This document shows, in pieces, positions 11,725 to 26,857 of a stretch of DNA of 64,000 nt (position 1 is the first letter of the stretch; the number at the start of each line of letters is the position of its first letter). This DNA comes from Methylovirgula sp. 4M-Z18. GTDB taxonomy: Bacteria; Pseudomonadota; Alphaproteobacteria; Rhizobiales; Beijerinckiaceae. Where the stretch lies: contig NZ_CP149574.1 of assembly GCF_037890675.1 (NCBI RefSeq), positions 2,766,874 through 2,830,873 of the forward strand, in the 5' to 3' direction. The notes under the pieces were generated by a model that did not search any database, was not told the DNA's origin, and saw nothing but the letters and a program-made list of their open reading frames with translations. The position numbers and the translations under genes were made by a program.

Positions 11725-11776
11725 CTCCTTGGAAAGACGCTGTAGTCATGTACCTATATGACACTAGTATAACATT

Positions 11777-11794
11777 GTGACAGCGGACTGACAG
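11777..11794 (-). promoter_or_regulatory. Pho box upstream of ppk1
   Basis: Read on the minus strand, this is CTGTCAG, a four-base spacer, then CTGTCAC: two 7-bp repeats with the 11-bp period of PhoB sites (consensus CTGTCAT-N4-CTGTCAT). Each repeat differs only at its last, least conserved base. It lies in the hdaA-ppk1 gap in the right orientation, followed by an AT-rich stretch that includes TATACT. PhoB binding is inferred from the pattern. Confidence 0.7.
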
Positions 11795-23696: not shown

Positions 23697-25034
23697 TCAG
23701 TTATTCTTGAACGCCGTGCGCGCCAGCTTGCGGACGGCCGGCGCGGTCACGACTTCATTCTTGTTGGCATAGGCTTCGTGATTCTTTTCGATATCGCCCA
23801 GCGCATAGAGATAATTGACCATCAAGCCGTGCGACTGCTGCAGGCCTTTCTTGGACATATCCCCAAGCATGTTCAGCCGCTCCAGCCGCGCACCGTTGCC
23901 GAGGTGGAACCGCGCGACGGGATCGATCACCCGGTCCCGGGCATCCCGCGCCTTGGTGAAGTAATGGGCGGCGAGCGGCAACAGAACGCGCGAGACCGCC
24001 TCGACCGCGCCGGATTTTTGCTGCCAGCCAGATTTGTCCATTAGGGCCAGGGCGCGACGGTCGGCTTTCGGCAGGTCCGTTTCGCCCTTCCGCACTGTCT
24101 CGAGCCATTTCGCGAAACCCGGCACGGGCGAGAGGGTGACGAATGTGTCGAGCTTCGGCAATTCGCGCTTCAACTCCTCGACCACCTGCTTGATCAGGAA
24201 ATTGCCGAAGGACACGCCGGCCAGGCCGCGCTGCGCGTTTGAGATCGAGTAAAAGACCGCGGTGGTCGCTTCGTTCATCGGCAATTCCGCGCGTTTCGGC
24301 GCCAGGAGCGGCGCGATCGCGGCTGGAATTTCGTCAGTGAGTGCGACTTCGACGAAGATCAGCGGCTCGTCGATCAGCGCCGGGTGAAAGAAGCCATAGA
24401 GACGCCGGTCCGGCGGCTCCAGGCGGCGGCGCAGGTCGTCCCAGCTCTCGATCGCGTGCACGGCTTCATAGCGGATGATTTTTTCCAGGATATTGGCGGG
24501 GGTCGACCAGTCAATACGCCGCAGCACAAGAAAGCCGCGATTGAACCAGGAAGAAAAGAGATGCACGAAATCCGCGTCCAAGGCCTTGAGGTCGGGCCGC
24601 TCGCCAAGTTGCGCCTGCACATCCTCGCGCATGCGCACCAGGGCCGGCGTCCCGCCGGGCGCGAGATTGAGCCGGCGGATCAGCTCCTGCCGCCGCGGCT
24701 CCGCCGCCGCGCTGAGCGCGCCGGCGCGCGTGAGGTCCGGCTCCGCCAGATAATCGGTCGCCGCCATGGTGAGCCGGGCGAGATCGGGCCCGAAGCGGCT
24801 GTTGAATTCGGTGAGAACCCGCATCTTGCCGGCGGCATCGAGATTGCCATAAGCGGCCAGCACATCGGCGGCGAGCGCAACGCCCGTCGCCTCGCCCCGC
24901 CCCGACACAAGCTGTTCAGCGCGGCGCAGAATCACCTCTGGCGAGGCGACCGATTCGCGCGCCAGCCCCACCAGCGCCCGGCCACGGTCGGCCACGGTTT
25001 GCAGCAACCCGCTCAAAAAGAAGGTCGTTTCCAA
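23697..25034 (-). CDS. matA: Malonyl-CoA decarboxylase
   Basis: Decarboxylates malonyl-CoA to acetyl-CoA. The 445-residue protein matches the MCD family, with the conserved segment FYSISNAQRGLAGVSFGNFLIK, VTLSPVPGF, and a C-terminal VARFHLGNGARLERLNMLGD that includes the acyl-CoA-binding region. The start is a TTG with a GGAGG site five bases upstream; an ATG four bases earlier is out of frame. It forms an operon with matB and is divergent from the aldolase-like gene. Confidence 0.92.
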   Translation of the reverse strand: METTFFLSGLLQTVADRGRALVGLARESVASPEVILRRAEQLVSGRGEATGVALAADVLAAYGNLDAAGKMRVLTEFNSRFGPDLARLTMAATDYLAEPDLTRAGALSAAAEPRRQELIRRLNLAPGGTPALVRMREDVQAQLGERPDLKALDADFVHLFSSWFNRGFLVLRRIDWSTPANILEKIIRYEAVHAIESWDDLRRRLEPPDRRLYGFFHPALIDEPLIFVEVALTDEIPAAIAPLLAPKRAELPMNEATTAVFYSISNAQRGLAGVSFGNFLIKQVVEELKRELPKLDTFVTLSPVPGFAKWLETVRKGETDLPKADRRALALMDKSGWQQKSGAVEAVSRVLLPLAAHYFTKARDARDRVIDPVARFHLGNGARLERLNMLGDMSKKGLQQSHGLMVNYLYALGDIEKNHEAYANKNEVVTAPAVRKLARTAFKNN

Positions 25035-25183: not shown

Positions 25184-25201
25184 TTGTCATAAAACTGTCA
25201 T
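25184..25201 (+). promoter_or_regulatory. Pho box upstream of the aldolase-like gene
   Basis: TTGTCAT, AAAA, CTGTCAT: a direct repeat with 11-bp period that differs from the PhoB consensus at one base of fourteen. It lies 43 bp before the ATG of the class II aldolase-like gene, on the same strand. The AT-rich CATAAAG downstream could serve as a -10 element. Confidence 0.75.
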
Positions 25202-25244
25202 CCAATCCATAAAGACATTTGATTTTTTTCGGGGGATGAACGGA

Positions 25245-26036
25245 ATGAAAGAACAAAACGCCCGGCTCGAGATCGTCACGCAATGCCGGGCAATAGCACG
25301 TTTGGGCCTTAGTCAGGGTGCGGTTGGCAGCCTTTCGCTCCGCCTGCTCGACGATTTGCTCATCACGCCGGCCGACGTCCCGCTCGAAAAGGTCGAGCCC
25401 AAAATGATCGCCGTCATGCCGCTCGCCGGGGAGTACGGCGCCTGGCACGGCACGATGAAGCCGACGAGCGAATGGCGCATGCATCTCGACATCGCCCGCG
25501 CCCGCAGCGATATCAGTGCCATAGTTCACACAGACGCGCTTTACGCGACCATTCTCGCCTGCCTGCGCAAACCCATCCCGGCGATCCACTACATGATCGC
25601 GCTGTTCGGCGGACCGGATGTCCGGTGCACCAATTATGCGCCCTTCGGCACCAAGCAATTGGCCGATCTCGTCCTTGCCGGCCTCAAGGACCGGCAGGGC
25701 GTGCTGCTGGCCAATCACGGCATGGTGGCGACCGGCGCCACGCTGGGCCAAGCCATGTGGCGCGCGGCGGAACTCGAGACCTTGGCGCGCATCTATCATC
25801 ACGCGCTGAGCGTCGGAAAACCCGCCACTCTGACCGACGCCGCCGTCCATGAGATCGTCGAGCGCTTCAAGGTCTCGGACCATCACGCGGCCAATCAGGC
25901 CCAAAGCGAAGCGCCCACCGCGCGCGCGGCCAAAGTCGCGGCGAAAAAGCCCCCCAAGAAAAAGAAGGTCGTTACCCGCCGGCGCTCTTCTGCACCCGAA
26001 CCAAAGAGTGATAAGAGAGTGGCGAAGAAGCGGTAA
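25245..26036 (+). CDS. Class II aldolase/adducin family protein with a lysine-rich tail
   Basis: About 263 residues. Residues 1-210 form an araD-type fold: LITPADVP, the catalytic-type glutamate in TSEWRMHL, the first metal histidine in VHTDALYAT and the third in LLANHGMV. The second histidine of the usual H-x-H pair is Asp here, so metal binding or activity may differ. Residues ~220-263 are a lysine/arginine/alanine-rich tail (AAKVAAKKPPKKKKVV and more). The ATG at 25245 is nine bases after a GGGGG site; an ATG at 25236 is alternative. A near-perfect Pho box precedes it. True substrate unknown. Confidence 0.75.
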   Translation: MKEQNARLEIVTQCRAIARLGLSQGAVGSLSLRLLDDLLITPADVPLEKVEPKMIAVMPLAGEYGAWHGTMKPTSEWRMHLDIARARSDISAIVHTDALYATILACLRKPIPAIHYMIALFGGPDVRCTNYAPFGTKQLADLVLAGLKDRQGVLLANHGMVATGATLGQAMWRAAELETLARIYHHALSVGKPATLTDAAVHEIVERFKVSDHHAANQAQSEAPTARAAKVAAKKPPKKKKVVTRRRSSAPEPKSDKRVAKKR

Positions 26037-26074: not shown

Positions 26075-26857
26075 ATGAATGTCATTCCGTTACGCAAGCC
26101 CCCCGTTCAAACGACACCCCATGTCAGCCTGAATTTCGTCTTTCTGCTCACGGTGCTGATCGTCGTGGGCGCGGCTTTGTACATGGACGTGTTTTCGAAC
26201 GCGCCGCTCGTCTTCGTCTTCGTCATCGTCGGCTGGATCGTCTCGATCTGCCTGCATGAATTCGGCCACGCCCTCATCGGCTTGATCGGCGGCGACAAGA
26301 CCGTCGTTGCCAAAGGCTATCTCGAGCTCGATCCGCTCCACTATATGGATCCGCTGCGCAGCCTCTTGTTTCCGCTGCTGTTTCTCCTCGTCGGCGGCTT
26401 TGCTTTCCCGGGCGCCAGCGTCTTCATCGAGACCCGTTATCTGCGCAGCAAATGGTGGGACAGCGCCGTCTCGGCGGCAGGCCCCTTCGCCAATCTCCTG
26501 GTCGCGCTCATCCTCGCCATGCCCTTCTGGCTCGGCCTGCCCCAATCTTTCGGCGCATCGGCCTTCTGGGGCGCGCTCGCTTATCTCGCCTATCTGCAGA
26601 TCATGGCGATCTTTTTCAACCTTCTGCCCATTCCGGGCTTTGACGGCTATGGCATCATCGAACCGTTCTTGCCGCGCCGGGTCGACGCCGCCCTGCGGCC
26701 GTTCGCATCAGGCGCGATGATCCTGGTCTTCATGGTTTTCTTTGTATCGCCGGTGCTCAGCGGCTATTTCCTGATCGGCGTCATCCGCACCCTCAGTGCG
26801 CTCGGCATCCCGCCGCAATATGTCATCCACGGCCTGCACGCGTTCCGTTTCTGGTGA
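26075..26857 (+). CDS. Site-2 protease family (M50) zinc metalloprotease
   Basis: A 260-residue polytopic membrane protein. The zinc-binding motif HEFGH (61-65) sits in a hydrophobic helix, and the second metal-site motif NLLPIPGFDG near residue 190 supplies the aspartate. This is the minimal group of M50 proteases without a PDZ domain. Members cleave membrane-spanning regulators, but no target is suggested by the neighbours. It starts 38 bp after the aldolase-like gene on the same strand and may share its transcript. Confidence 0.87.
   Translation: MNVIPLRKPPVQTTPHVSLNFVFLLTVLIVVGAALYMDVFSNAPLVFVFVIVGWIVSICLHEFGHALIGLIGGDKTVVAKGYLELDPLHYMDPLRSLLFPLLFLLVGGFAFPGASVFIETRYLRSKWWDSAVSAAGPFANLLVALILAMPFWLGLPQSFGASAFWGALAYLAYLQIMAIFFNLLPIPGFDGYGIIEPFLPRRVDAALRPFASGAMILVFMVFFVSPVLSGYFLIGVIRTLSALGIPPQYVIHGLHAFRFW

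Follow-up and report, generated by a model that had tools for sequence, protein, structure and literature searches.

A putative PhoB-controlled gene for a class II aldolase-fold protein with an altered active site in Methylovirgula sp. 4M-Z18

The gene studied here encodes a FucA-like class II aldolase-fold protein and lies in a 64,000-nucleotide stretch of the Methylovirgula sp. 4M-Z18 genome, hereafter the window, between a malonyl-CoA decarboxylase gene and a gene for an M50 (site-2-protease type) peptidase with which it is perhaps co-transcribed (Table 1). No match to the peptidase was found at the homologue loci examined, where flanks were mostly of 1.5 kb and reached at most 5 kb on named contigs, some being cut by contig ends. 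Translation likely begins at the ATG at 25245, which gives the N-terminus MKEQN, matching the MKEK/MSEK starts of homologues (MKEKELR, MKEKDLR), and leaves space for GGGGGA, by our own reading a putative ribosome site; residue numbers of the protein (P0001) are counted from the ATG at 25236. PF00596 was the sole Pfam match (154.8 bits vs a cut-off of 22.2; E 2.9e-45), and this score, together with the same fold in the predicted structure, places the protein in the class II aldolase/adducin superfamily. For the model, predicted with an alignment (A1) of 54 sequences, pLDDT averaged per block of ten residues was 91-98 as far as residue 210, fell to 73 in the block that follows and was 57-68 across the tail. 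Its best structure matches were chains of E. coli FucA (PDB 1fua and mutants), with a Foldseek TM of 0.95 and 37-38% identity, and a similar core fold and length; the matches also included 6btd/6btg, a phosphate-sugar aldolase going by the PDB title. The protein scored below the curated FucA cut-offs (PRK08087, 183.3 vs 264; TIGR01086, 168.9 vs 400.25), and among the 25 listed of the 27 NCBIfam families matched, none scored above its own cut-off.

Table 1. Features at the aldolase-like gene and related sites (window positions unless a locus is named; FucA numbering in brackets).
Feature	Position	Strand	Remarks
Malonyl-CoA decarboxylase gene	23697..25034	-	Divergent neighbour; adjoins the homologues in G025 and G027 too
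Pho box, TTGTCATAAAACTGTCAT	25184-25201	+	TTGTCAT-N4-CTGTCAT; two TGTCAT direct repeats 11 bases apart
FucA-like class II aldolase-fold gene	25245..26036	+	Alternative in-frame ATG at 25236
Codon Ser32 (FucA Asn29, phosphate grip)	25329..25331	+	N in 126/126 homologues
Codons Ala46-Asp47 (FucA Thr43-Gly44, phosphate grip)	25371..25376	+	Ala in 2/126, Asp in 0/126
Codon Thr77 (FucA Ser71, phosphate grip)	25464..25466	+	Ser in 125/126
Codon Asp100 (FucA His94, zinc ligand)	25533..25535	+	His in 126/126
Codons Ser214-Asp215 (FucA Tyr209-Gly210)	25875..25880	+	Tyr in 121/126, Gly in 122/126
Basic tail, 39 residues, predicted disordered	25917..26033	+	Read from translation; low pLDDT
M50 (site-2-protease type) peptidase gene	26075-26857		38 bases after the aldolase-like gene
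Pho site before ppk1 (PPK1)	11758-11774	-	One mismatch
Exact Pho box before Na/Pi-cotransporter gene with PhoU domain	L146 1501-1517		17-mer identical to that of the aldolase-like gene, spacer included
Exact Pho box (third in genome) before long ABC permease gene	L144 1501-1517		
Pho site beside PPK2 gene			PHO4 transporter gene on the opposite flank
Pho site beside type I phosphodiesterase gene			
Pho site beside gene for calcineurin-like phosphoesterase resembling PlcP			Followed by apparent glycosyltransferase gene (both names our own reading)
Match in L023	1501-2226	Reverse	See text

Analysis of the region 5' of the aldolase-like gene revealed a Pho box in the orientation of the gene, 43 bases before the ATG at 25245 and 34 bases before the alternative ATG, in agreement with the original prediction of a near-perfect box 43 bp upstream of the start. 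The pattern TGTCAT-N5-TGTCAT occurs exactly at this one place in the window, and sites with up to two mismatches numbered nine vs a mean of 3.2 in shuffled windows, none of 100 shuffles reaching nine. When the 200 bases preceding position 25236 were shuffled 300 times, no shuffle gave an equally good site. In the whole genome (5.03 Mb, two contigs) we found 3 exact and 16 one-mismatch sites, 19 in total, vs a single site for the reversed control pattern. A chance origin of the box was ruled out by the window shuffles, the genome enrichment and the upstream-region shuffles. A scan for sigma-70 promoters in the upstream region of the gene found none; the lack of such a match is not decisive for a PhoB-dependent promoter. 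We also considered that the box might serve the divergent malonyl-CoA decarboxylase gene, which is less likely because the repeats read towards the aldolase-like gene and lie 149 bases from the called start of the decarboxylase.

The open frames adjoining all 19 genomic sites were listed, and a Pfam scan was run on nine proteins adjoining eight of the sites and on that of ppk1. Plain phosphate-role genes adjoin five of the 19 sites, and the L146 site falls inside the longest open frame of the Na/Pi-cotransporter, upstream of its likely start. Pho-boxed PlcP genes adjoining a glycosyltransferase gene are already known (PMC4796936). No clear phosphate gene was recognised at 12 of the sites (three by Pfam scan, L148, L159 and L161, and nine as open frames alone), and some of these are probably chance matches. 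Since the genome is enriched in such sites (19 vs 1) and five of them precede plain phosphate-role genes, the box of the aldolase-like gene looks like a true PhoB site. The presence in the window of ppk1 with a Pho box of its own, also foreseen, was confirmed; the two genes do not form one operon, as they are about 13 kb apart. Upstream of ppk1, two adjacent Pho-box-like sites, with one and two mismatches, span positions 11758-11793.

To compare the active site with those of relatives, 137 homologues were collected, and removal of identical proteins left 132; from an alignment of those 180-420 aa long, the 127 with at least 38% identity, window protein included, were counted. A column was taken as near-invariant if 80% or more of the 126 homologues filled it and its identity was 95% or more (n = 45). 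The window protein keeps 40 of these positions and departs from the family at five, N29S, S71T, H94D, Y209S and G210D in FucA numbering, where the equation of Ser214-Asp215 with positions 209 and 210 is putative and based on the adjoining columns. Five departures are the highest number among the 127 proteins, the next being four and the median zero. FucA active-site residues occupy nine of the 45 columns and account for four of the five departures (hypergeometric P 0.0038, a descriptive value, as the residue list was compiled from the literature once the departures were known). N29, T43, G44, S71 and S72 have been assigned to substrate recognition and E73, Y113 and G132 to the active centre (PMC5216522), and a role in epimerisation has been proposed for Y209 (PMC5434028). 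S72 alone is kept among the five phosphate residues, and two of the three zinc histidines, H92 and H155, are retained, with Asp at H94. The remaining two phosphate positions, T43A and G44D, are variable in the homologues also (of the 126, two have Ala at 43, and 42 have either Ala or Ser at 44). In the alignment, E73, H92, Y113, G132 and H155 are common to FucA and the window protein, which differs from FucA in the substitutions N29S, T43A, G44D, S71T, H94D and Y209S, in its basic tail and in its Pho box. It had been assumed earlier that the gene encodes a working aldolase, and the active site speaks against a reaction of the FucA type: because the phosphate grip is changed, a zinc histidine is replaced by Asp and Tyr209 is lost, function as a FucA-type sugar-phosphate aldolase appears unlikely. 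Asp is able to bind metals, and H94D may leave activity.

The lysine/arginine/alanine-rich end of about 40 residues that had been described for this protein was borne out: its last 39 residues are rich in K, R, A and P, and the last 45 contain 38% K+R and 7% D+E, a net basic fraction matched by none of 327 genes sampled from its own genome. The sample comprised 400 kb, about 8% of the genome, in which genes encoding 100 aa or more were called with a home-made script. Direct reading of the tail revealed no KPAA repeats of the AlgP type. The nearest family homologues, with 49-57% identity, bear K/R-rich tails of 22-61 residues. Twelve distinct tail-bearing proteins from four genera were identified (L010, L011, L012, L013, L039, L120, L121, L122, L123, L125, L126 and L127), a lower bound, as tails were read at fetched loci among 69 family matches; the identical pairs L124/L039 and L040/L013 were counted once each, and L142 and L128 stand outside the count. 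Further matches extending past residue 235 (e.g. G177, G216 and G118) may carry tails. In genera g17, g18 and g29, the homologues read end shortly after the core and have no tail. Because tailed and tail-less rows fall together in a single clade of 31 in the tree, the tail is, judging from this topology, either old in that clade with subsequent losses or of repeated origin. Outside the twelve, L023, a more distant FucA-like protein from another genus of the family, ends in a long stretch rich in lysine, alanine and proline, similar to the tails of histone H1.

The tailed homologues share the basic tail with the window protein, and two of them (L010 and L011) also the malonyl-CoA decarboxylase neighbour; unlike it, they keep the active-site residues named above, and in none of the twelve do the 200 bases upstream on the gene strand contain a Pho box. 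Within these limits, the window gene matches the pattern at 12 of 12 positions, vs 8 of 12 in the best tail-bearer (n = 12) and 9 of 12 in the best of the 114 other homologues with at least 38% identity, none of which reaches 10 of 12. Extension of the scan to 250 bases and both strands revealed 10/12 sites on the gene strand at L012 (-219) and L125 (-206) and a 9/12 site on the opposite strand at L011 (-110), which were left out of the box count for distance or strand, although they may be boxes. The homologue searches covered samples of larger groups: among 397 family genomes, 16 besides the source had a match at 1e-72, and among 397 order genomes none besides the source had one at 1e-75. 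As far as can be seen from these samples, the box is private to the lineage of the aldolase-like gene, and an altered active site with apparent phosphate control is seen in one genome. Because the tail occurs without the box in all twelve tailed homologues read (best match 8/12 over those 200 bases), we rejected the two as a single module, and the link between them suggested in the original prediction is not supported; this suggests that the tail serves something apart from phosphate control.

The reading we prefer, to which we give about an even chance, is that the gene encodes a PhoB-activated aldolase-fold protein, formerly a FucA-type sugar-phosphate aldolase, whose active site has been reworked. 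According to this proposal, a FucA-type aldolase gene would have come under PhoB control in this lineage and its active site would have been altered; under low phosphate, PhoB would bind at the box and transcription would start. The product is predicted to fold as a class II aldolase, and the changes aligned with the phosphate grip, the zinc histidine and Tyr209 suggest that phosphate binding has been lost. The basic tail, a trait common to related homologues, would probably anchor the protein to a polyanion, be it nucleic acid, polyphosphate or an anionic membrane. Taken alone, the likeliest outcome for the active site, with a probability somewhat short of even, would be a metal site in which two His are joined by two carboxylates, with a substrate that carries no phosphate. 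A precedent by analogy for changed chemistry on the aldolase fold is pyruvic oxime dioxygenase, a class II aldolase homologue described as lacking the FucA substrate residues and having its metal chemistry changed to Fe (PMC5216522); it differs from the window protein in keeping all three histidines, and its identity to the window protein model is 21%. If the preferred reading holds, an enzyme fold would have lost its hold on phosphate in the lineage that placed the gene under the phosphate-starvation regulator, with both regulation and catalysis rewired in a single gene, and an aldolase-fold protein would be added to the Pho regulon. In the open-licence literature we found no paper joining the Pho regulon or PhoB phosphate starvation with class II or fuculose aldolases, and the word aldolase is absent from the main text of a Pho review (PMC4415409).

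The next likeliest outcome, although rather improbable, is a non-catalytic binding protein, in which the fold would act as a scaffold and the oligomer would present several basic tails to polyanions. The altered zinc ligand and phosphate site and the predicted disorder of the tail are consistent with such a role. The MARCKS-homology region of adducin is rich in lysine. By analogy, adducin offers a precedent for an aldolase fold turned into a binding module, since it belongs to the same superfamily and its aldolase domain is reported to be without catalysis (PMC12599920), and it has a basic region of its own, the MARCKS-homology region (PMC4265757). Two of the three histidines have diverged in the placozoan adducin domain vs one in the window protein (PMC12599920). 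Adducin is, however, a long multidomain eukaryotic protein, and no homology of the tails is claimed. A bacterial counterpart of adducin, that is, a silenced class II aldolase induced by phosphate starvation whose oligomer's basic tails organise polyphosphate, the nucleoid or an anionic membrane, is a speculative idea that we consider improbable. Against a dead scaffold stands the retention of E73, H92, Y113, G132 and H155, and since the residues for proton transfer and the other metal residues are intact, we favour a re-tuned metalloenzyme over it.

Less probable than the scaffold is that the gene is decaying, as a duplicate freed by an intact paralogue and drifting to a pseudogene, in which case the box would be fortuitous or a remnant. 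In a tree of 70 rows with at least 44% identity, built on core columns alone (one long row, L009, was flagged as of unsure place), the window protein has the second longest end branch, with 0.79 changes per column vs a median of 0.17. Identity of the aldolase core is 61% and 60% between the window protein and its homologues in G025 and G027, respectively, and 72% between the latter two; the corresponding values for malonyl-CoA decarboxylase in the same three genomes are 64%, 70% and 66%. Tajima tests gave chi-square values of 7.4 and 3.9 (P 0.007 and 0.048). By these comparisons, the aldolase-like gene is fast-evolving and its conserved neighbour is not, which we count, together with the intact paralogue, in favour of the preferred reading as well. 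The long branch and the loss of catalytic residues would fit decay, and the genome contains a FucA-like paralogue (L001; 52% identity, HTH kept, no tail) that could have freed the tailed copy. Nevertheless, the frame is open over 266 codons with a coding base pattern (GC3 0.73 vs GC2 0.46), 40 of the 45 near-invariant positions are kept with the losses concentrated in the active site, and the box is exact.

Slightly below decay we place the view taken in the original prediction, that of a polyphosphate-associated protein using its tail in phosphate starvation. The co-occurrence of box and basic tail in the same gene and the boxes of ppk1 and ppk2 are in line with it, and polyphosphate binding by the tail is possible from its composition, by analogy with AlgP/PhaF: these proteins have a lysine-rich disordered C-terminus, and AlgP has been localised to polyphosphate granules (PMC9239181). 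That C-terminus is, however, described there as a 154-residue KPAA array on an alpha-helical domain, whereas the window protein has 39 residues without such an array on an aldolase fold, and in all twelve tailed homologues the box is missing from the 200 upstream bases of the gene strand. The least probable alternative is an ordinary aldolase (FucA or 5-deoxyribulose-1-phosphate type) that remains active despite the changes and whose induction would let the cell salvage the carbon or the phosphate of sugar phosphates. It would accord with the predicted fold, the several catalytic residues kept and the structure matches to 6btd/6btg, but H94D and N29S occur in none of the 126 homologues and G44D places a negative charge at a phosphate position.
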